From NCBI RefSeq assembly GCF_003853705.1, contig NZ_QTQI01000026.1, positions 47,532-111,531 of the forward strand: 64,000 nucleotides of DNA. The letters are read 5' to 3'. Made by a program: the position numbers and the translations under genes. Each line of letters opens with the position of its first letter. Position 1 is the stretch's first letter. Positions 5,587 to 53,136 of this stretch are shown here, piece by piece. Under the pieces are notes generated by a model. The model was not told the DNA's origin and did no database searches. It saw only the letters and a list, made by a program, of their open reading frames with translations. This DNA is from Burkholderia sp. Bp8992. Lineage in GTDB: Bacteria > Pseudomonadota > Gammaproteobacteria > Burkholderiales > Burkholderiaceae.

Positions 5587-6657
5587 TCAGATATTCCACG
5601 ACTGCGCGGTATCCAGCAGCTTCTCGCGCAACTGATCGACTTCACCGGCCAGCTTGGCCGTGATCGACACATAGCCGGACAGCTGCGGCGGCGGCGCGTC
5701 GTGCAGCGGGTCGACCGGCCGGCGGCGCGGCGCGAGCCGGCTCGGCGTGCCGAACTTGAGCGCGCGGCTCGCGCCGACCAGCGTGTCGCGGATGCGCCGG
5801 TTCAAGGTCTTCATCTCGACGCGCATGTATTCGCGGGCCACCACGTCGTCGCGGGCCGGCAGCGCGCTCGACAGGATCTCCAGATAGCCGATGCACAGGC
5901 GCAGGCTGCGCTGGATCGCCTCGAGCTGCATCATCGACGTCTCGCATTCCTTCGACACCGACGGCATCAGCGAGCGCAGCTGCACGAGCAGCGCGCTCAG
6001 CGCGGCCATTTCCTTCAGGTGCGCGTCGTCGCCGACCTGGCGGTCGCCCGCGAGCCGCGCATGCACGGCCGCGCACGCGCGCAGCGCGTCGGCGAGCTTG
6101 TAGCGCCACGAATAGGTCGCATAGAGCGGCAGCGCGAACGAGAACGCCAGCGCGATCGCGATGCCGGCCAGCACGTTCACCGCGCGCCACAGGCCGTCGA
6201 CGATCTCGTTGTCGCCGTGCCCGGCGACGATCACCATCGTGATCGCCGACAGCAGCGCGATGTAGCCGGCCTTGCCGATCGCGTGATACGCGCAGACGCC
6301 GCACCAGACGGCCATCAGCAGGTAGATCGCGAACGGCGCGTGCAGGAACGAGTAGAGGAGGATCAGTCCGAGCCCGGCCAGTGCGCCGATCGACGTGCCG
6401 AGCGCGCGCTCGGCCGCCTTCTTGCGGATGTTGCCGTGGTGCTGCAGCCCGCCGACGACGATCAGCACGGTGATCGTCGACCACTCGCCGTGCGGGACGT
6501 GCAGGCCGGTGGACAGGGCGATCGACACGAGGACGGCGAGCGCGACGCGCGCCGCGTGGATCAGCTTCGCGTGCCGGTAGCGGCGGTACGGGTCGAGCAG
6601 CGGGCGGAGCGCGTTGCGCAGCAGGGGCGGCAGCCGGGTAGGGAGCGGGGTGGTCAT
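5587..6657 (-). CDS. FUSC-family inner-membrane protein (aromatic-acid exporter-like)
   Basis: 356-residue protein with the fusaric-acid-resistance/YccS-like fold. After a basic N-terminus it has six closely spaced hydrophobic segments between residues about 35 and 185, including VALAVLVSIALSTGLHVPHG and WSTITVLIVVGGLQHHGNIR, the FUSC signature with conserved W..T..VV. A long cytoplasmic helical tail with the motif LRLCIGYLEIL follows. Family members export aromatic or phenolic acids, but the substrate here is unknown. A 154-bp gap separates it from the diguanylate cyclase on the same strand. No adjacent membrane-fusion (HlyD) gene is present, unlike complete AaeAB-type systems. Confidence 0.8.
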   Translation of the reverse strand: MTTPLPTRLPPLLRNALRPLLDPYRRYRHAKLIHAARVALAVLVSIALSTGLHVPHGEWSTITVLIVVGGLQHHGNIRKKAAERALGTSIGALAGLGLILLYSFLHAPFAIYLLMAVWCGVCAYHAIGKAGYIALLSAITMVIVAGHGDNEIVDGLWRAVNVLAGIAIALAFSFALPLYATYSWRYKLADALRACAAVHARLAGDRQVGDDAHLKEMAALSALLVQLRSLMPSVSKECETSMMQLEAIQRSLRLCIGYLEILSSALPARDDVVAREYMRVEMKTLNRRIRDTLVGASRALKFGTPSRLAPRRRPVDPLHDAPPPQLSGYVSITAKLAGEVDQLREKLLDTAQSWNI

Positions 6658-6811
6658 GACGGAGCGGGGGTGGCGGGAACGCGCACGGCGGCGTGCGCGG
6701 GCAGGCGCCGCGCCGCTTGCGCAGCAGACGTCACGCTAACCGAACACGCGCGGGCTGTCCACGGCGCGGGCGCGCACGGCGCGGGCGCGCGCCCGGCCGC
6801 GACGCGGGACA

Positions 6812-8344
6812 TCACGCGTCGGCCGTGGCCGGCGGCGCGTCCAGCACGCGGTTGCGGCCGCCGGACTTCGCGCGGTACAGCGCTTCGTCGGCGCGCCGGA
6901 GCAGCGTCGCGGCGTTCAACCGGCCGTCGGCGGCGGTCGCCGTGCCGATGCTGGCCGTGACGCGCCCGTACGGGCTCTTCACGTGCTCGATGCCGAGCCC
7001 CGCGATCGCGCGCCGGATGCCTTCGGCAACGGTGACCGCGCCTTGCGCGTCGGTGTCGGGCAGCGTGACGACGAATTCCTCGCCGCCGTAGCGCGCGACG
7101 TGGTCGCCGTCGCGGCGCAGGCAGCCCGACGCGGATTGCGCGACGCGGCGCAGCACGTCGTCGCCGGCCGGGTGGCCGTAGTAGTCGTTGAACGCCTTGA
7201 AGTGATCGACATCGACGAACAGCACGGACAACGGCCGGCCGCTGCGCGCCGCGCGCTGCGCCTCCTTCGCGAGCACCGTGTCGAACGTGCCGCGGTTGTC
7301 GAGGCCCGTCAGCGCATCGGTGCGCGCGAGCCGGTACAGCTTCGATTCGGCGACCTGCCGCCGCTTCAGTTCGCGCGACAGCGCGAGCGAGCCCCACGCG
7401 ATGAACCCGGTGAACAGGCACATCAGCACGACGGTCCAGACCGTGCGGTGGTGCCACGACGCGTAGATGTCGATCTCGGCCGGCGCGACGTCGACGACCA
7501 GCGGCAGGCCGGCGAGATGCTTGTAGACGTAGATGCGCCGGACGCCGTCGATCGCGCCGGTACCGGTCAGCTCGCCGGTGCGGCTGCGCTGCGACTCGAT
7601 GAACAGCGGCGAGTCGTGCAGGTCGAGGCCGACCACGCGCGTGTCGTACGGCAGCCGCGACACGAGCGTGCCGTTGTCCTCGACGATCGCCGCGCTGCCG
7701 TGCCGGCCGACCGCGAGGCCGTCGAGCAGCGCACGGAAGTAGTCGATGCTGAGCGTGCCGACGACGATGCCGCCGAAACTGCCGTCGGACCGCGTGATCC
7801 GGCGGCTGAGCGCGATCGTCAGCGCGCCGCCGCGCAGCCGGGAAGCGTACGGCCGGCTGATGTAGAGGCCCTGCGCGAGCCGGTCGCGATGCACGGCGAA
7901 ATAGTCGCGGTCGGCGAAATTGCCTTGCCGGGCCGGCGACGCAGTCGAATCGATCACGATATTGCCGTGCGGATCCATCACGAAAATCGAGCCGAGATAC
8001 TCGCCGGTCGCCGCGCGGTCGAACAGCAGCCGGTGGCGCTGGCGCGGCGGCAATGTCATCAGTTCGGGATCGGTAACGCCGTCGACGACGTTTTGCAGCG
8101 ACAAATCGTAGAGTTCGATATTGCGCGCGATATCGCGTTCGATCAGCAGCATCAGGTTGCGCGCATTTTCGACCGCATGGTCATACGCATCGCGCCGTGC
8201 CTCGATTAATAGCGACGCGGAAAGTCCCCAACTGAACATCAGCAGCACGATGCCCGCAACGAGCACGCCGCGGGGCGAAAGAATGCGTGCCACGATCGAC
8301 GCGGTATGGCGGCGCAGCGTGGCGGGCAGCGGGAGTGACTTCAT
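6812..8344 (-). CDS. Membrane diguanylate cyclase (dCache-like sensor + GGDEF)
   Basis: 510-residue enzyme predicted to make cyclic di-GMP from two GTP. One transmembrane helix (about 28-48) is followed by a periplasmic double-Cache-type sensor (about 55-300), a second transmembrane helix (about 306-326) and a GGDEF domain (about 345-500). The active site is YGGEEF. An RDGD motif sits five residues before GGEEF, which is an intact RxxD inhibitory I-site, so product feedback inhibition is expected. The DALTGLDNR and ASIGTAT segments are typical of active cyclases. No EAL domain is present. It is a single gene. The upstream region to lysP is AT-rich and presumably carries divergent promoters. 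Confidence 0.92.
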   Translation of the reverse strand: MKSLPLPATLRRHTASIVARILSPRGVLVAGIVLLMFSWGLSASLLIEARRDAYDHAVENARNLMLLIERDIARNIELYDLSLQNVVDGVTDPELMTLPPRQRHRLLFDRAATGEYLGSIFVMDPHGNIVIDSTASPARQGNFADRDYFAVHRDRLAQGLYISRPYASRLRGGALTIALSRRITRSDGSFGGIVVGTLSIDYFRALLDGLAVGRHGSAAIVEDNGTLVSRLPYDTRVVGLDLHDSPLFIESQRSRTGELTGTGAIDGVRRIYVYKHLAGLPLVVDVAPAEIDIYASWHHRTVWTVVLMCLFTGFIAWGSLALSRELKRRQVAESKLYRLARTDALTGLDNRGTFDTVLAKEAQRAARSGRPLSVLFVDVDHFKAFNDYYGHPAGDDVLRRVAQSASGCLRRDGDHVARYGGEEFVVTLPDTDAQGAVTVAEGIRRAIAGLGIEHVKSPYGRVTASIGTATAADGRLNAATLLRRADEALYRAKSGGRNRVLDAPPATADA

Positions 8345-42693: not shown

Positions 42694-42931
42694 CGCACGC
42701 ACTCGCCGCACACTTCCAATTTCGCGACATGCGCAAGAGGCGAAACGAACATTCGATGCGCTCGCGCAACTCGCAAACGTTTTACCTTGATTTCGGTTCG
42801 AAACGAGGACGAATTCCCTAAAGGATGTTGAGCCCGATGACGTAAACGAGTCACGGGGATGACTCGCGATCGCACGCTTCAGACGTGCGACGCGCAGTCC
42901 GCAACAACCAGCGCAGCAGGGGGATCGACTT

Positions 42932-44182
42932 GTGAATCGTCAGCAATCGTGGACGCGTACGGCGGCGCCCGGGGAAATCATCTATTCCGAGGGCTTCGCC
43001 GGCGAGCCCGTCATCTTTCTGATTACCGACGGCAAGGTCGAGCTGTCCACGCGATGCGACGACAAGCGCGTCATCGTCGCGACGCTCGGCCGTGGCGAGT
43101 TCTTCGGCGAATCGGCGTTGCTCGCGGCCGAACCGCGAGCGCATACCGCGAAGGCGCTGTCGTTCTGTCAGCTCACCGTCGTGCCGGCCAGCATGCTCGA
43201 TGACGAAATCGAGCGTGTGTCCGCGCTGCTGCGCCACATCGTGCGGACGATGATTCGCCGCGTGAAGCGCAAGGACGACCAGCTCGCTACCTACACGCAT
43301 GGCGACTTCATGCCGGGCGTGCTGTCGTATGCGCACCTGCTGGCGCTGATGGCGAACGCCGATGGGCGCGAAGCCGCTGACACGTGGGCGCGCCGGCCGA
43401 TGCAGGCCCATGCGGCCGAAACCTCGGTGCCGCTCGCCGAAGTGATCCGCAAATGCCGCGCGATTGCCGGCCACTCGCGCCCGCACGTGCTCGCGATGCT
43501 GCGACGCATGGAGAAGCTCAATCTCGTCACGATCGAAGCCGCGCAGGGTGACGCTGCCGGCAGCGCAACCGACCATGCGGCCTCGTCGGATGCGCGCCAG
43601 GTCGTCACGTTCGACGCCGCGCGCGTGATCGATCGCGCGCAGCAGGTGGCCGATCACGATCTCGACCTGTCGATCAACAGCGAACTCGAACTCATCGAAC
43701 TGGCCGATCTCGAATCGCTGATCGGCGTCGACAGGACGCTGCTGCTCAACAAGCTCTCGAACGGCGAGATCGCCGACGAAGTGTTCGCGTTCCGCAAATC
43801 GAAGGTGCTCAGTTTCGTCGAGCAGAAGGGTGTGGCGTACTTCTCGCGGCGCAACGGCCGTCGCGGCGGCGACGTGCGCGCGCTGGAGGACATCGTGTGG
43901 GTCGACCAGCGCACGCTGTTCGACGTGATCAGCGCGTTCGATACGTACGACCTCGCGAAGCTGATCGCGAACCTCGACGATCGCGCCGTGGCCGACAAGC
44001 TGTTTTCCGTGATGACCGAGGCGCGGCGCAACGAAGTGTCGTGGGTCATGCGCCGCGAGATCAAGCTCGATCCGATCGAGGTCGAGGAGATCGAGCAGCG
44101 CGTGCTGGATGCCGTGCGTGTGGCGAAGGCGCCTGCGGCGGGCGTGGCGCCGGTGGCGTCGACGTCGGCGTCGGATGCGTGA
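42932..44182 (+). CDS. Cyclic-nucleotide-binding / FliG-C-like fusion protein
   Basis: 416 residues, GTG start behind GCAGGGGG. Residues 8-95 are a cNMP-binding (CRP-type) domain whose phosphate cassette, FFGESALLAAEPRAHTA, keeps the Gly-Glu and the Arg that grips the cyclic phosphate. Residues about 165-200 look like a degenerate CRP winged helix. The C-terminal part carries two FliG-like units: a weak one at 258-300 and a clear FliG C-domain match at 317-398 (LEDIVWVDQRTLFDVISAFD, then KLFSVMTEARR and EVEEIEQRVLDAV). The five torque-associated charges of E. coli FliG (K264, R281, D288, D289, R297) align by eye to A, A, W, V and D. It is followed 13 bp later by MotA-like and MotB-like genes. 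Role inferred: a nucleotide-controlled rotor or stator-coupling adaptor. Confidence 0.8.
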   Translation: MNRQQSWTRTAAPGEIIYSEGFAGEPVIFLITDGKVELSTRCDDKRVIVATLGRGEFFGESALLAAEPRAHTAKALSFCQLTVVPASMLDDEIERVSALLRHIVRTMIRRVKRKDDQLATYTHGDFMPGVLSYAHLLALMANADGREAADTWARRPMQAHAAETSVPLAEVIRKCRAIAGHSRPHVLAMLRRMEKLNLVTIEAAQGDAAGSATDHAASSDARQVVTFDAARVIDRAQQVADHDLDLSINSELELIELADLESLIGVDRTLLLNKLSNGEIADEVFAFRKSKVLSFVEQKGVAYFSRRNGRRGGDVRALEDIVWVDQRTLFDVISAFDTYDLAKLIANLDDRAVADKLFSVMTEARRNEVSWVMRREIKLDPIEVEEIEQRVLDAVRVAKAPAAGVAPVASTSASDA

Positions 44183-44195
44183 AACGGAGAAGCGT

Positions 44196-44960
44196 ATGGA
44201 TCTGTTGACCCTGGCCGGTGTGGTGCTCGGCGGCGCGGCGATCGTGTTCGGTTTCGCACTCGAAGGCGGGCATTTCTCGATGCTGTTCCAGTTCGAGGCG
44301 CTCGTGATCGTGCTCGGCGGCACGCTCGGCGCGGTGATGATCCAGAACACGTGGGCGCGCTTCTTCGACGCGGTGAAGCAGCTGCGGCTCGCGTTCGTGC
44401 GCGCGCGCGAGGTCGATCGCAAGAACCTGTCCGACCTGCTCGAATGGGGTGATCGCGCGAAGCTCGACGGGTTGCTCGCATTCGAATCGATGGATGTGAG
44501 CGGCATTCATCCATTCGCGCGCCGCGGGCTCGAACTGCTCGCGAACGGCGTATCGACCGCCGTGCTCGAGGATGCGTTGCAGCGCGAGCTCGATGCGTAC
44601 GAACGCAGCCGCCTCGCCGCCGTGCGCGTGTGGCAGCAGGCCGGCGGTTATGCGCCGACCTTCGGCATTCTCGGCTCGGTGCTCGGGCTTGTGCAGGTGA
44701 CGAGCCATATTCTCGAACCCGCGCAACTCGGGCCGGGCATCGCGATGGCGTTCGTCGCGACGCTGTATGGCCTTGCGTTCGCGAACCTCGTGTTCCTGCC
44801 GCTGTACGGCAAGCTGCGCGCGCAGATCGACAGCGAGATGCGGTTCCGCAAGCTGTATCTCGACGGCTTGCTCGCGATTTCGCGCAAGGAGTCGCCGCAT
44901 ACGATCGAAACGCGCTTGACCGGCGACGTGCGCGGGCGCGCGGCGGAATCGCTGGCGTGA
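44196..44960 (+). CDS. MotA/PomA-like stator subunit
   Basis: 254-residue inner-membrane protein with four helices of the MotA/TolQ/ExbB channel family, closest in style to MotC/PomA (LEGGHFSMLFQFEALVIVLGGTLG near the start). The large cytoplasmic loop includes EWGDRAKLDGLLAFE, the region that in MotA contacts FliG. Prolines expected at the proton path are present in YAPTFGILGSVLGL and NLVFLPLYGKL. The ATG at 44196 has a GGAGA ribosome site 13 bp after the fusion gene, so it is in the same operon. Not accompanied by flagellar genes. Confidence 0.88.
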   Translation: MDLLTLAGVVLGGAAIVFGFALEGGHFSMLFQFEALVIVLGGTLGAVMIQNTWARFFDAVKQLRLAFVRAREVDRKNLSDLLEWGDRAKLDGLLAFESMDVSGIHPFARRGLELLANGVSTAVLEDALQRELDAYERSRLAAVRVWQQAGGYAPTFGILGSVLGLVQVTSHILEPAQLGPGIAMAFVATLYGLAFANLVFLPLYGKLRAQIDSEMRFRKLYLDGLLAISRKESPHTIETRLTGDVRGRAAESLA

Positions 44961-45030
44961 TGTTTGTGCGCTTTGTGCTTGCGCCTGGGCCTGTATCTGT
45001 ACCGCATGACGAACCCGGATTCCCGACAGC

Positions 45031-45702
45031 ATGACTGCTCGAACTGACGGCGCATCCGCTGCCGATCGCGACGATGACGAACTCGAAGGCGCGCAGTCCG
45101 GACGCTGGCTGATTTCGTACGCGGATCTCATCACGACGCTGATGGTGCTGTTTCTCGCGCTGTACGTGCTGCAGCTCGCGAAATACAACGCGCTCGATGC
45201 GCGGTACCAGACGCTCGCGCGGCAGGCCGGTGGTGCTGCGACTGCCGCCGCCGAACCCGTCAAGTCCGACGCTGCGCCGCCGTGGCTCGCGTTGCTCGAT
45301 TCGTTGAAGTCGAACGGCCGGATCTCGCTGGTGAAGGCGCCGCACGGTGTCGAGATCGGCATCGACGCGAAGATCCTGTTCAATGTCGGCGATGCGCGCT
45401 TGCTGCCCGATTCGTCGCCCGTGCTGAACCAGATTGCGCAGGCACTCGGCGATCACGCGACAGGCGACATCCTCGTCGAAGGCCACACGGACAACGTGCC
45501 GATCGCGAACGCGAAATACGAATCGAACTGGGAGCTGTCGTCGGCGCGTGCGGGCAGTGTCGTGCGCTACCTGACCGAGCGCGGTATCGCGCCGCATCAG
45601 CTGGCCGCGATCGGGCGGGCCGATACGCAGCCGCTCGTCGCGGGCGACGATGCTGCATCAAGGGCGCGAAACCGGCGCGTCACGATCTTTGTTGCCTACT
45701 GA
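45031..45702 (+). CDS. MotB-like stator subunit with OmpA peptidoglycan-binding domain
   Basis: 223 residues. A short cytoplasmic tail is followed by one helix bearing the ion-binding aspartate (Asp32 in ISYADLITTLMVLFLALYV) and, after a short linker, an OmpA/MotB domain (about 115-222) with VEGHTDNVPIANAKYESNWE, SARAGSVVRYL and ARNRRVTIF, which bind peptidoglycan. It is much shorter than E. coli MotB (308). Together with the preceding gene it should form a 5:2 ion-driven stator unit. Confidence 0.9.
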   Translation: MTARTDGASAADRDDDELEGAQSGRWLISYADLITTLMVLFLALYVLQLAKYNALDARYQTLARQAGGAATAAAEPVKSDAAPPWLALLDSLKSNGRISLVKAPHGVEIGIDAKILFNVGDARLLPDSSPVLNQIAQALGDHATGDILVEGHTDNVPIANAKYESNWELSSARAGSVVRYLTERGIAPHQLAAIGRADTQPLVAGDDAASRARNRRVTIFVAY

Positions 45703-45825
45703 TTCGCGTGGTACTTGCGTTGTGCCATCCCATATAGGCGGCCGCATATGCCCGCCTGTCATCAACATAACGAATCTCGCATGATTGGTATCTGAAATCA
45801 GCGATGCGGTTCTGCGTGTGCATGC

Positions 45826-45861
45826 CGATAACCCAAACTGGCTCAGACCGAGCGGTTATCG
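45826..45861. promoter_or_regulatory. Inverted repeat just upstream of the MCP gene
   Basis: CGATAACC (45826-45833) and GGTTATCG (45854-45861) are exact inverse copies, ending 10 bp before the MCP start. The left arm overlaps GCCGATAA (45824-45831), a perfect sigma-28 -10 box, but no TAAA element lies at the right distance. Confidence 0.35.
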
Positions 45862-45871
45862 AGGGTTCCCC

Positions 45872-47734
45872 ATGCATTTCTGGCGCAAGCTTTCCATTCA
45901 GAACAAGCTGATTCTCAGCATGACGAGTTGCCTGCTCGTGTTCGTCGCGATTTCGAGCGGGCTCAGCGTTCGTCTGATCGGCAACGCGGTGCGCGATCGC
46001 GTCGTCCGCGAAGAACTGCCGACCGCCGTGAACGGCATTCGCGCCGACGTGCAGCGCCAGATGGCCGGCCCGATCGCCGCGTCGCGCATCCTCGCGCGCG
46101 ATGCGTTCCTGCTGCAATGGGAAGCCGACGGCGAACCCGATGCCGGCACGCGCAACTGGATCCAGTTCGCGAAGAACGTGAAGGACGAGCAGAAGGCCGC
46201 GTCCGTGCAGTGGGTGTCGGTGAAGAGCGGCAACTACTACAACGAAGCCGGCCTGCAGCGGAAAGTGACCGACAAGGATCAGTGGCTGACCAGCTTCCTG
46301 TCGTCCGGCAAGGCGTTCGACGTGAACATGGATCGCGAGGTGACCGTCGGCGGCTACATGATGTTCATCAACAGCCGCGTGGAAATCGACGGTGTGCCGA
46401 TTGGCGCGGCGTGCATGAGCCTGTCCGTCGATGCGCTTGCGAAGGGTATCTCGGCTTACCGGATCGGTGAGAGCGGGTTTGCGTACCTCGTGCGCCCAGA
46501 TGGCGCGATCATGATGCATCGCGATACGTCGCTGATCGACGGCAAGCATTTTCTGAAGGATGAGCCGGGGTTGCCGGGCGATGCGTCGTCGACGTTGCTT
46601 GCCGGTAAGCCTTATGCGTACCTCAGCTATGAGGGTGATGGCGGCGCGCGGTTCATCGCGACGTCGTTCATTCCTGAGTTGAACGCGTATGTGGTCGTCC
46701 AAGTGCCGCAGGCCGAACTGCTCGGGCCGGTGACGCGGGCGATCCATAGTGCGGCGCTGGTTGCGGCGGTAGTGGGGCTTGGGGTTGCGTTGCTCGTGAT
46801 CTGGCTGGTGGGGCGCGCGATTGCTGCACCGATTCGTCGGGCGGCGACGCTGTTGTCGGAGATCGCGAGCGGCCAGGGCGATTTGACGCGCCGGATGACG
46901 GTCGAGAGCGGGGACGAGATCGGGCAGCTGTCGGATGCGTTCAACCGGTTCGTGTCGTCGCTGTCGACGCTGGTTCATCGGATTCGTGCGGCTTCGGCTT
47001 CGATCGCGACCGGGTCGGCGCAGATTGCTTCGGGGAATGCGGATCTCAGCGAGCGCACCGAAGGGCAATCGAGCAACCTGGAGCGGACGGCTTCGTCGAT
47101 GGAAGAGATCACGGCCGTGGTGCGTAACAACACCGAGACGGCGACTACGGCCGCGAAGATGATCAATGGGGCGGCGGATACGGCGGCGCGTGGCGGGCAG
47201 GTGGTGGGGGAAGTCGTGACGACGATGGAGCAGATCAGCAACGCATCGCAACGGATCTCCGAGATCATCGTGATGATCGACAGTATCTCGTTTCAGACGA
47301 ATATTCTGGCGTTGAATGCTGCGGTGGAGGCGGCGCGGGCGGGGGAGCAGGGGCGTGGGTTCGCTGTCGTTGCTTCGGAAGTACGGAATCTGGCGCAGCG
47401 CAGCGCGCAGGCGGCGAAGGAGATCAAATCGCTGATCGAGCACAGCGCGGGGACGGTGGGTGCCGGGTCGCGGCTCGTTAGTGAGGCGGGGAAGGTGATG
47501 AGCGATGTTGTCTCGCAGGTTCAGGGCGTTAGCGCGATGATGAGCGAGATTGCCGAGGCTAGCCTGGAGCAGAGTGCTGGCATTGATCAGATTGGGGATG
47601 CGGTGCAGTCGCTTGATCAGATGACCCAGCAGAATGCGGCTTTGGTCGAGGAAAGCGCTGCGGCTGCGGAGAGTTTGAAGCAGCAGGCTGCGGAACTGAC
47701 GAAGCTGGTTTCGGCTTTTAAGGTGGATGAGTAA
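45872..47734 (+). CDS. Methyl-accepting chemotaxis protein
   Basis: 620 residues. Membrane helix 1 (about 14-36) is followed by a periplasmic dCache-like ligand domain (about 40-285, including [19 protein letters not shown] and [17 protein letters not shown]), helix 2 (about 297-320), a HAMP domain and a long cytoplasmic coiled-coil with the signalling tip [20 protein letters not shown]. There is no C-terminal NWETF-type CheR-docking pentapeptide. The ATG at 45872 starts [13 protein letters not shown]; a longer form lacks sense. It follows the MotB-like gene by 169 bp on the same strand. Third-base G+C preference drops noticeably from about 46480 onward. Confidence 0.93.
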
Positions 47735-49745: not shown

Positions 49746-50055
49746 TGTGTAAAAGGTTGGACTAGATCAAACAGGCAGCGTCAGATCGGCTGACTCACTT
49801 CGGCCAGGAAGCGTCGTTCGCCTGCATTTCTCGTCGCCACTTTGACATCGATTCCCTGCCGGTGAGCAGTCGGTCAGTTGGATTGGCCGGTAAAGCCTTA
49901 AGATTTTTAAGTAAATGCCGATAAGCAATAGATGGCATGTGACTCTCATCGAGAGCCACCACCTCTAAGTCAGTTGAAGCTCCGATGTCGTTGTTTTCAA
50001 AACGGCGTATTCGTTGGTTGACGCGGGAAATAATATATTTCAGAAGGAGAATTAA
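49746..50055. other. Gene-free AT-shifted segment before the OLD-like gene
   Basis: 310 bp with no supported gene. G+C falls from about 55% to about 40% across it. The last 20 bases hold the AAGGAG ribosome site of the next gene. A short minus-strand open frame around 49767-49949 looks like a non-coding remnant. Confidence 0.4.
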
Positions 50056-51531
50056 TTGGTTGAGTTGAAACTGGAAAATATTCGTGGGATCAGAAGTATG
50101 TCGCTCTCACTTCCATTGAAAAAAGGACTTTACGCAATTACAGGCGAAAACGGGATCGGGAAGAGTACAATATTTGCCGCACTTTCAAAGCTTGTTTACC
50201 GTGGCGCATTGCAAAATTTCTTTAAAAATGATGGGGAAGCAACTTCTAAGATCTCCTATCGCAGCGGGGGGGATGAAAATGTTTGGGAGAAAAAAATAAG
50301 TTGGCAGAGAACCGATCAATGCCAAAGCGAAATTTGCGTCGATGGGTTTTACGAGGGAAGCCTGATATTTGGAAATAGATTTAGCGACGCACATATATCC
50401 AGGGTTTCCAAGGCAATTAAGATCTCCCCGGCCGACCTTCGTGACTCCGACCCCTTCGTCTCAGAAAATCTAGGCTGGATTCTTCGAAATGATAAAAGCC
50501 ATTTTTCTGGGTTAAAGCGCGTTAAATCAAAACCTGTTGCAGAAGGTCTTGGTTTTCACGGAATTCCGTATCTTATCGAAAGGAACGGGAAGTGGCTTCA
50601 TTATCTTAAAATGAGCTCCGGGGAATTTTTGCTTATTGGGTTGCTTCATCTTATCAATGAGCGCGTAAAGTACAAAGAAAAGAAACAAAACGATCATCTT
50701 AGTGTGATCATTATGGATGAAATTGAGTTGGCATTGCATCCTTCAGCGCAGGATCGGCTTGCAATTTTCCTGAACAAAATATCGGATCAGCATAATTTTT
50801 GCATTTATTTTGCCACGCACAGTGTCCAAATTATTGCAAATGTTCGACCCGAGAAAATTTTTCATCTTGAATCACCTACTGCAGGCGTGATTGAAGTACT
50901 TAACCCATGCTACCCTGCGTATGCTACCAGATGTCTATATACGGCAGATGGATTTGATTACATCCTGCTTGTCGAAGATGATCTCGCAAAATTCTTGGTT
51001 GAAGGGTGTCTTCGAGAAAAATCGATGTATAGCAGTCGATTGATAAAAATACTACCTTGCGGCGGATGGGAGAAAACGTTGGAGCTGCAACACGAAATCT
51101 CTCAATCGAGGCTTGCTGGTAACGCGTGCAAGGTAATATCGATACTCGATGGGGACATAAGGGGCGAGTGCGATAAACTTTACGGAAATGGCACGCAATA
51201 TGGTGCACTCCCCAAGCAATTTTTGCCGATCAAGAGTTTGGAAAAATATCTTCTCAAAAAACTCGCATTGGATCTGGATGTGGCGTTTATGAGAAAATTT
51301 GGCGACGAATTTTTCCAAGTAAGAAGCTTGAGCGATATAATGAATGATTATAAATCAGATAAAAGATCTTCGTCGGATTCAAATGGCAAGGGATTGTTCT
51401 CTGTTCTTAAACGATGCGCCTCGGAACAGGGGATTGCTGACGAAATATTCAAAAGGGATGTGTGTCGGTTTATATACGATTACGAAGATCTTTCGAAACT
51501 GAAAGAAAGTATAAAACGGCTTTGCTCATAG
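50056..51531 (+). CDS. OLD-like AAA ATPase with TOPRIM-type nuclease domain (candidate phage-defence gene)
   Basis: 491 residues, TTG start seven bases after AAGGAG. An SMC/ABC-type ATPase fills the N-terminal 280 residues: Walker A GENGIGKST (30-38), MSSGE signature-like (186-190), Walker B SVIIMDEIELALHPS (216-230) and sensor FATHSVQII. The C-terminal part is TOPRIM-like: ILLVEDDLAKFLVEG (Glu307) and ISILDGDIRG (Asp365, Asp367). This is the layout of class 1 OLD nucleases, which exclude phages in P2 and act in several defence systems. No partner helicase (GajB type) follows. Base composition is near 41% G+C, strongly unlike the chromosome: a recent acquisition. Confidence 0.78.
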   Translation: MVELKLENIRGIRSMSLSLPLKKGLYAITGENGIGKSTIFAALSKLVYRGALQNFFKNDGEATSKISYRSGGDENVWEKKISWQRTDQCQSEICVDGFYEGSLIFGNRFSDAHISRVSKAIKISPADLRDSDPFVSENLGWILRNDKSHFSGLKRVKSKPVAEGLGFHGIPYLIERNGKWLHYLKMSSGEFLLIGLLHLINERVKYKEKKQNDHLSVIIMDEIELALHPSAQDRLAIFLNKISDQHNFCIYFATHSVQIIANVRPEKIFHLESPTAGVIEVLNPCYPAYATRCLYTADGFDYILLVEDDLAKFLVEGCLREKSMYSSRLIKILPCGGWEKTLELQHEISQSRLAGNACKVISILDGDIRGECDKLYGNGTQYGALPKQFLPIKSLEKYLLKKLALDLDVAFMRKFGDEFFQVRSLSDIMNDYKSDKRSSSDSNGKGLFSVLKRCASEQGIADEIFKRDVCRFIYDYEDLSKLKESIKRLCS

Positions 51532-51781: not shown

Positions 51782-53136
51782 GGAGCTATCCGGAATTCCG
51801 TGTGCGAGGCGGGTTGAGATTCAGACTCCAATGTTGAATCGTTCCGGGTAAAGCAGCGCGAACTGAGTCATGGCGCTCTTCCAATCGTGCCGGGAACCGG
51901 TCCACTTGGCCACGATGTTGCGCAGCGCCAGCCAGATCAGTTTGAGCGCGGCCTCGTCCGACGGGAAGTGGCCGCGCGCCTTGATGATCTTTCGAAGCTG
52001 CATGTGCAGCGACTCGATCGCGTTGGTCGTATATACAATTTTCCGGATATCAGGCGCGAAGGCGTAGAACGGAATCACCTGATCCCAGGCTCGGCGCCAG
52101 AGCGCGGCAATCGGAGGGTATTTCGTACCCCATGGGCTCGTATCGAACGTATCCAGCGCCACGGCGGCCGCTTCGGCGCTCGGTGCCCGATAGACCTCCT
52201 TGAGCGCCGCTGCGACCGATTTCCGGTCTTTCCAGCTCGCGAAGTCCAGCGAGTTCCGGATCAGATGCACGATGCAGGTCTGGACCGTCGTTTCCGGGAA
52301 CACCGTGTTGATCGCTTCCGGGAAGCCCTTCAGGCCGTCGACCACGGCGATCAGAATGTCCTGCACGCCGCGCAGCTTCAGGTCGTTCACCACCCGCAGC
52401 CAGAACTTGGCCCCCTCGGTCTGCTCGATCCAAAGGCCCAGCACATCACGTGTGCCGTCACGGCGCACTCCCAGCGCCAGGTAGATCGCCTTGTTGCGCA
52501 CGACGCCTTCGTCGCGGATCTTGACTCGCAAGGCGTCGAAGAACACGACCGGGTACATCGGCTCGAGCGGCCGCTGCTGCCATTCGCGCACTTCGTCGAT
52601 CACCGCGTCGGTCACCGTGCTGACGAAGTCCGGTGACACCTCGATGCCGTACATCTCCAGCAGGAAACCCTGAATCTCCCGCACGCTCATGCCGCGTGCG
52701 TACATCGCGATGATCTTGTCGTCGAAGCCGGTGAAGCGTCGCTCGCCCTTGGCGATCAGTACCGGATCAAAGGTGCCTTCGCGGTCGCGCGGAATCTCGA
52801 CGTCGAGCAGGTCGTCGTCGGTCGTGATGCGCTTGCGGCTGGTGCCGTTGCGGTGGTTCGTGCTACTCGCCGGCTTGGCTTCACCCTTCTCGTAACCGAG
52901 ATGATGGGTCAGTTCGCCGCCCAGCGCACGCTCGAAGATCGCCTTCTTGAGCGCGGCCAGTTGCTCATTGATCGTCGCCCGGTCCAGCGTCCCGGGCACC
53001 AGTTGCTTGATGAGTTCCGGGTCCAGGTTCAAGCCCTTGCCCGGTTCAATCGTCACTTCTTCCTTGCGTTTGCGTGGCATAAAGTGGCTCCTTGGTCGCC
53101 AGTTTATGCCTCACACACAAACATTCGGATAGGCTC
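51782..53136 (-). mobile_element. Complete IS256-family insertion sequence (1355 bp)
   Basis: Imperfect terminal repeats: the left end reads GGAGCTATCCGGAATTCCGTG's first 20 bases, the right end (complement) begins GAGCCTATCCGAATGTTTGT; about 14 of 21 positions agree, with CTATCCG shared. The ends are bounded by an exact 8-bp duplication, ATTCCTCG, in the range (8-9 bp) made by IS256 elements. One intact transposase gene on the minus strand fills the element. Confidence 0.88.
51821..53080 (-). CDS. IS256-family (mutator-type) transposase
   Basis: 419 residues, DDE recombinase. Family segments visible are MYARGMSVREIQGFLLEMYG, YPVVFFDALRVKIRDEGVV (first Asp), LIAVVDGLKGFPEAI (second Asp), VQTCIVHLIRNSL (the C-x2-H motif) and VYTTNAIESLHMQLRK (Glu). 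All expected catalytic residues are present and the frame is intact, so the element may be active. It lies within well-defined IS ends. Confidence 0.95.
   Translation of the reverse strand: MPRKRKEEVTIEPGKGLNLDPELIKQLVPGTLDRATINEQLAALKKAIFERALGGELTHHLGYEKGEAKPASSTNHRNGTSRKRITTDDDLLDVEIPRDREGTFDPVLIAKGERRFTGFDDKIIAMYARGMSVREIQGFLLEMYGIEVSPDFVSTVTDAVIDEVREWQQRPLEPMYPVVFFDALRVKIRDEGVVRNKAIYLALGVRRDGTRDVLGLWIEQTEGAKFWLRVVNDLKLRGVQDILIAVVDGLKGFPEAINTVFPETTVQTCIVHLIRNSLDFASWKDRKSVAAALKEVYRAPSAEAAAVALDTFDTSPWGTKYPPIAALWRRAWDQVIPFYAFAPDIRKIVYTTNAIESLHMQLRKIIKARGHFPSDEAALKLIWLALRNIVAKWTGSRHDWKSAMTQFALLYPERFNIGV

Follow-up and report, generated by a model that had tools for sequence, protein, structure and literature searches.

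The 64,000-nucleotide (nt) stretch of contig NZ_QTQI01000026.1 from Burkholderia sp. Bp8992, referred to below as the window, carries a gene for a fusion protein in which a cyclic-nucleotide-binding domain (CNBD) is followed by a region resembling regulators of the CRP/FNR family and by a tail with weak likeness to the C-terminal part of FliG. Directly behind it lie genes for a MotA-type and a MotB-type stator protein and for a methyl-accepting chemotaxis protein (MCP). The first-pass annotation had read these genes as a possible cyclic-nucleotide-controlled motor outside the flagellar regulon; its gene order and its gaps of 13 and 70 nt were recovered as claimed. We here describe the composition, distribution and promoter of this locus and weigh the readings of its function.

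A fusion gene and its stator pair

The locus comprises the following features.

42772..42782, + strand: conserved upstream element CGCAAACGTTT, ~36 nt before the -35 element
42819..42846, + strand: sigma-28 (FliA)-type promoter, TAAAG-N15-GACGTAAA, scoring 13/13 and lying 85 nt before the fusion GTG
42932..44182, + strand: fusion gene, GTG start, 416 amino acids (aa), CRP/FNR-like regulator plus FliG-C-like tail
42956..43213, + strand: CNBD, fusion residues 9-94 (Pfam cNMP_binding), with phosphate-binding cassette FGESALLAAEPRAHTA
43214..43564, + strand: CRP/FNR-like dimerisation helix and winged-helix region, fusion residues 95-211, from profile alignment
43757..44128, + strand: FliG middle/C-terminal-like tail, fusion residues 276-399, weak, with shuffled controls not far below
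43883-44122, + strand: Pfam FliG_C match, fusion residues 318-397
44196..44960, + strand: motA-type stator gene, MotC/PomA class, 254 aa, starting 13 nt past the fusion stop
45031..45702, + strand: motB-type stator gene, MotD-like, 223 aa, 70 nt past the motA-type gene
45872..47734, + strand: MCP gene, a neighbour and not a constant member of the unit

A full-length fusion was found in 51 of 65 Burkholderia genomes, and the same 51 encode the unit MotA at 66-99 per cent identity. The fusion is followed by motA and motB in 36/36 of the first loci (L002-L037, among which a genome is in some cases represented more than once) and in 15/20 of the loci L068-L087. The five exceptions, all in genus g3 (taken to be Caballeronia), comprise four orphans without motAB (L068-L071) and one fusion (L072) whose pair is undecidable because the contig ends at it. 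A scan of named genomes gave 112 relatives; in the best 80 of these, all of which bear Burkholderia, Paraburkholderia or Trinickia titles, motA and motB follow the fusion in 80/80 loci. The suggestion that fusion and stator pair belong together is thus borne out, and by gene order the fusion, motA and motB travel as one unit in Burkholderia, Paraburkholderia, Trinickia and Caballeronia. Ratios of nonsynonymous to synonymous substitution rates (dN/dS) of 0.02-0.34, in eight comparisons over the three genes, point to purifying selection. The orphan fusions share 32-45 per cent identity with the copy in the window, and one of them (L068) adjoins a gene that by eye is sigma-54-type activator-like; these copies suggest that the fusion can act, or decay, without the stator pair.

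In wider samples, matches occurred in 103/398 genomes and 5/25 genera of the family sample, some of them partial, and a full-length match in 1/349 genomes of the order sample. In the phylum sample (349 genomes), one full-length relative was present among the matches listed, in the same Burkholderia genome as in the order sample, and the remaining matches listed cover only the CNBD part. No relative was found in phages or viral contigs, and a phage or viral origin was rejected. Clustering of neighbours by similarity indicated that flanking genes vary between genera and gave no conserved fourth gene as a possible anchor or output. The unit also occurs on megaplasmids, and no flagellar cluster was seen beside it.

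Records of Burkholderia cenocepacia and B. arboris share ~92 per cent identity with the four-gene stretch of the window. The MCP of the window has HAMP and MCPsignal above the Pfam cut-offs and dCache_1 slightly under its own. Among the 80 named loci, an MCP lies within the 6 kb flanks in 31 and directly downstream in just 29; on this count the MCP was rejected as a general partner, and its proposed role as feeder of the system is not supported.

Domain composition of the fusion and the stator proteins

Pfam places cNMP_binding at residues 9-94 of the fusion (E 1.8e-17, 63.5 bits) and FliG_C at residues 318-397, the latter weakly and above its gathering cut-off, in agreement with the two domains first proposed. 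The profile of the fusion family matches the PKA regulatory subunit 5kbf (E 1.5e-24) and Bd1971. E60 is kept in 136/136 and R69 in 133/136 fusion sequences; we take these to be the ribose- and phosphate-binding residues of CNBDs. Because these pocket residues are conserved, nucleotide binding by the N-terminal domain is likely. The earlier proposal had named cAMP among the nucleotides coupled to the stator, and cAMP is unsupported as a general ligand, since 6/11 fusion genomes tested gave no class III cyclase match at E <= 1e-5 (other cyclase classes were not searched). Cyclic di-GMP (c-di-GMP) is a candidate ligand.

The likeness to the CRP/FNR regulators extends well beyond the CNBD. The fusion has the CNBD with phosphate-binding cassette that marks membership in this group, and its family profile aligns over residues 3-211, through the winged helix, with 28 CRP/FNR proteins drawn from six fusion-bearing genomes (probability 97.8, E 7.9e-13), so that the order of CNBD, long helix and winged helix is shared. 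Residues 95-211, for which the first-pass annotation gave no assignment, can be aligned with the half of these regulators that holds the C-helix and the winged helix. In profile comparison, residues 120-215 alone gave E 3.6e-4 against CRP/FNR and 0.2-0.36 against FliG. The winged-helix residues are strongly conserved within the fusion family. The fusion differs from CRP/FNR regulators in having no Pfam match to HTH_Crp_2 (PF13545), despite the remote profile likeness, in an extra tail of ~200 residues, and in its DNA-reading positions, where the window fusion has Pro and Ala in place of the Glu and Arg that contact DNA in CRP/FNR.

The tail is probably homologous to FliG-C, as judged from a recurrent and weak similarity. 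Its Pfam FliG_C match in the window fusion has E 5.4e-5 and 23.8 bits (gathering cut-off 23.3), so that the match first read into residues 317-398 is present, if faint. FliG_C was matched at E <= 1 in 28/30 members of the fusion family; within the genus, 41/51 fusions score above the cut-off, three below it, and seven are unreported at E <= 0.01. Among the fusions listed, the match lies at a roughly constant position with an EDL..VDQR signature. Purpose-built FliG profiles gave a best score of 15.5 bits over 57 fusions, compared with at most 9.3 for shuffled copies. The fusion tail and FliG share the C-terminal signature LEDI..VDQRT and colinear helices; they differ in that Pfam gives neither FliG_N nor FliG_M at E <= 1 for the window fusion, and neither is among the families listed for the 30 members. 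Searched against PDB sequences, the region behind the CNBD gave a best E of only 1.4. In FliG, residues R281 and D288-D289 contact MotA (PMC12505986). In an uncertain alignment, R365 of the fusion (135/136) falls near R281 and the acidic residue 376 (130/136) near D289, the second acidic residue has no counterpart, and E383 (135/136) sits where FliG has R297.

The MotA-type protein matches Pfam MotA_ExbB and MotA_N. It also exceeds the cut-off of 237 bits for NCBIfam PRK09109, which models a flagellar motor protein and which we take to be MotC, with 249 bits in the window and 238-255 bits in 6/6 unit proteins tested. Its best PDB matches are flagellar MotA and PomA, and by these scores the unit MotA belongs to the flagellar MotC/PomA class. 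K89 and E97, a charged pair of the MotA cytoplasmic loop, are invariant in 9/9 unit MotA proteins, and from spacing and alignment to solved MotA we infer that they are equivalent to R90 and E98 of E. coli MotA, which meet FliG D288-D289 and R281 (PMC12505986). The MotB-type protein has Pfam MotB_plug (E 1.2e-9) and OmpA (E 2.3e-19) domains. Its D32 is invariant in 9/9 and presumably is the channel aspartate, with a role as in E. coli. The plug, channel aspartate and peptidoglycan-binding domain of a MotB subunit are all found, and the pair is intact-looking in sequence. The NCBIfam MotD cut-off was not reached by the three unit MotB proteins tested (166-177 against 283 bits). At one locus (L085), a 322-aa open reading frame (6250-7215) with a start that by eye is signal-peptide-like stands between motA and motB, and the pair is interrupted by 1021 nt.

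Promoter and flagellar context

Alignment of 21 Burkholderia upstream regions revealed one deeply conserved block, a bipartite TAAAG-N14/15-(G/T)NCG(T/A)(A/T)A(A/T). This FliA-type element was scored over 13 positions and found at a score of at least 12 before 135/137 fusions (some genomes are represented twice); the two misses score 9 (L014) and 10 (L169). At 12 of 13, it occurred in 9/2740 shuffled upstream regions and before 6/437 other genes of the same loci, five of the six being one lipoprotein family; no MCP gene among the 437 has the promoter at this score. The element ends 70-99 nt before the start in 129/135 fusions. Among 109 non-identical upstream regions, the -35 part is TAAAG in 88, TCAAG in 20 and TTAAG in one, with a spacing of 15 in 88 and 14 in 21.

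The same element, as GAAAG or CAAAG, N14 and GCCGTAAA, precedes the canonical flagellar motA at 12 of 13 in 11/11 genomes, and the flagellin gene of genome G013 also scores 12 (TAAAGTTTT...GCCGTCAA). In sequence, the fusion elements resemble the FliA sites listed for E. coli, which include those upstream of tar (TAAAG...GCCGATAAC) and of ycgR (TTAAG...ACCGATAAA) (PMC4183435). A FliA-type promoter thus appears to precede the operon, and by sequence it would place the operon within the flagellar regulon. A position outside that regulon, as originally proposed, is unsupported and at the sequence level contradicted, because this promoter stands before 135/137 fusions.

A second upstream element, CGCAAACGTTT, is visible in the alignment of the 21 Burkholderia upstream regions, not in all of them, and the form GCAAACG(A/T)T lies within 80 nt upstream of the -35 element in 48/109 non-identical upstream regions. 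We take CGCAAACGTTT to resemble a LacI/PurR-type operator.

The genomes that carry the unit also carry flagellar genes. Flagellar-type FliG, at 131 bits or more, is present in 64/65 Burkholderia genomes and in 50/51 of those with the fusion, the exception (G058) being an 82 per cent complete draft. Canonical MotA (111-118 bits) was found in 14/14 Burkholderia genomes tested. All nine fusion genomes tested have the unit MotA (40-49 bits) in addition to the canonical one, and the unit pair is therefore not their only stator, a possibility that the first-pass annotation had entertained. Genome G042 has a longer operon of fusion, motA, motB, a small open reading frame, a full FliG and an MCP. This extra FliG (L016, 5135-6160, same strand) has N, M and C domains and shares 66 per cent identity with the flagellar copy in G001; tblastn with FliG gave no extra FliG in the 80 named loci.

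Several further observations touch these parts. Three genomes (G014, G021, G041) have a second FliG (95-96 bits) and a second MotA (89-95 bits), which together look like a lateral flagellar system of their own. Weak and isolated matches to FliG_C (49-54 bits) lie in 362-384 aa frames at G790:C23:68379-68672 and G794:C12:269134-269424; these two genomes have no other match at E <= 1e-10, and the frames may encode non-flagellar FliG-like proteins. At five loci of neighbour cluster 8 (L018, L019, L022, L024 and L033), a small lipoprotein-like gene has a perfect GCCGATAA 29 nt upstream of its start, with TAAAT or TAAAC 14 nt before it. Within the window, an AAA_15/AAA_21 ATPase gene (50056-51531) has a FliA-like site of 12 of 13 at 49898, probably by chance, and beyond it lies a transposase-like gene, IS256 type by eye (51821-53080).

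A putative accessory stator and the competing readings

We consider the unit best explained as an accessory flagellar stator operon under FliA, in which the fusion would act on its own stator as a nucleotide-gated clutch or engagement factor; we give this reading a probability of about one half. FliA would switch the operon on once the hook is finished, and the unit MotA/B pair would enter the flagellar motor already present, as a second type of stator. Built on a CRP/FNR scaffold, the fusion would be a soluble dimer that contacts its own MotA through the FliG-C-like tail, on the cytoplasmic side and at the usual site of FliG engagement. When a nucleotide second messenger binds the N-terminal domain, the tail would become better or worse at competing with the rotor, or at handing the stator over to it. 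The first-pass annotation had offered a clutch or competitor at the flagellar rotor as one option, and this is the most likely of those it named.

Known systems offer partial analogies. The YcgR brake and the EpsE clutch are likewise accessory proteins, with a proposed site of action at the MotA-FliG interface (PMC13432727), and ycgR is itself FliA-controlled in E. coli (PMC4183435); the present unit differs from both in having its own dedicated stator. Pfam gives no PilZ domain, a feature of YcgR and FlgZ, at E <= 1 for the window fusion. With MotC/MotD of Pseudomonas the unit shares a MotA that passes PRK09109 and a second stator beside the normal one, whereas its MotB stays under the MotD cut-off. 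FlgZ-MotCD also provides a case of a nucleotide-messenger adaptor serving one stator type (PMC8036289); the adaptor of the unit differs in being CNBD/CRP-like with a FliG-like tail rather than a PilZ protein, and in being encoded within the stator operon. One published study reports that no proteins homologous to MotCD were found in B. terrae BS001 (PMC5462819). By analogy, a clutch at the MotA face would be the simplest mechanism, functionally like FlgZ-MotCD or YcgR and built from different parts.

A number of points weigh against this reading. The contact of the fusion with MotA and its nucleotide binding are both predictions from sequence. The FliG_C match of the window fusion is close to threshold, and on the purpose-built FliG profiles this protein reaches only 5.6 bits, within the shuffle range. 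Profile-profile comparison of residues 276-399 with FliG gave a probability of just 5-8 per cent (E 0.004-0.008) when 33 FliG sequences were used, a four-sequence FliG profile being uninformative; the score was 22.7 for the real profile and up to 19.9 among 60 column-shuffled ones. Only some of the FliG charges that meet MotA in E. coli have counterparts in the fusion, in an alignment that is itself uncertain. As to distribution, 14/65 Burkholderia genomes have neither the fusion nor the unit MotA, and the four divergent fusions without motAB (L068-L071) nevertheless have a FliA-type promoter. As to the promoter, fliC of G056 has one that reaches only 10 of 13, and the strict pattern is not enriched across that genome, with three matches (one before the operon, one 35 nt before a gene that looks like a CheY-like response regulator, one with no clear gene) versus eight for the reversed control, so the strict pattern alone does not define a regulon. 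Moreover, the 13-position score was defined after the conserved block had been seen; the contrast with shuffled regions and other genes therefore shows conservation and position, and the FliA likeness rests on the flagellar motA genes, the flagellin genes and the E. coli list.

The alignment over the whole length of CRP/FNR (residues 3-211) and the strong conservation of the winged helix also favour a stator-tethered transcription factor, that is, a DNA-binding CRP/FNR regulator held at the membrane by MotA through the FliG-like tail, with stator state and nucleotide jointly deciding its action on genes. We regard this as unlikely, given the unmatched HTH_Crp_2, the Pro and Ala at DNA-reading positions and the lack of any known target site. 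A related and rather doubtful proposal is motor-coupled signalling, in which a CRP/FNR-type dimer would sit on the cytoplasmic face of its own stator by means of a FliG mimic and read engagement or load together with the nucleotide. If true, it would act on genes or on the motor and would physically link flagellar load sensing to a transcription-factor scaffold. We are equally doubtful that the fusion simply regulates its own motAB operon in the ordinary CRP-like manner, with convergent helix chemistry behind the FliG_C match: the score barely above the cut-off, the 5.6 bits of the window fusion and the low profile-profile probability would fit this, but FliG_C recurs in 28/30 members at a similar place with the EDL..VDQR signature, the best fusions outscore all shuffles, and the promoter is FliA-type.

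A role for the fusion as rotor in some distinct, non-flagellar device powered by the MotA/B pair would accommodate the absence of a neighbouring flagellar cluster and the occurrence on megaplasmids. It is quite improbable in light of the missing FliG_N for ring binding and the flagellar FliG in 50/51 fusion genomes of the genus, and a non-flagellar machine was rejected as the leading reading because of the FliA-type promoter, the flagellar class of MotA and the lack of a conserved fourth gene as anchor or output. A Zorya-like defence system was rejected on the MotA-type protein: the unit MotB matches ZorB models (best E 5.3e-22), whereas the unit MotA had 0 PADLOC hits in a run on the unit proteins, not on neighbours, and with only 254 aa it has no long ZorA tail. 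Replacement of some FliG subunits in the flagellar C-ring, with altered rotor behaviour, is very improbable despite the FliG_C likeness and the extra FliG in the G042 operon, since FliG_N and FliG_M were not found and the fusion thus has no known way to bind FliF or FliM.

We found no description of the fusion or the operon in the literature searched, which left out most subscription papers, and neither Burkholderia nor cyclic nucleotides are named in the main text of a survey from 2025 devoted to MotAB and related proteins (PMC12505986). The fusion represents an undescribed protein family, with relatives in >100 species-level genomes, that joins a nucleotide-binding domain to what is apparently the rotor part gripped by stators. 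Its host group has plant, insect and human associations. Second stators in many bacteria serve load, viscosity or surfaces. If the tail binds MotA, the accessory stator operon described here would be a compact case of second-messenger control over stator choice.

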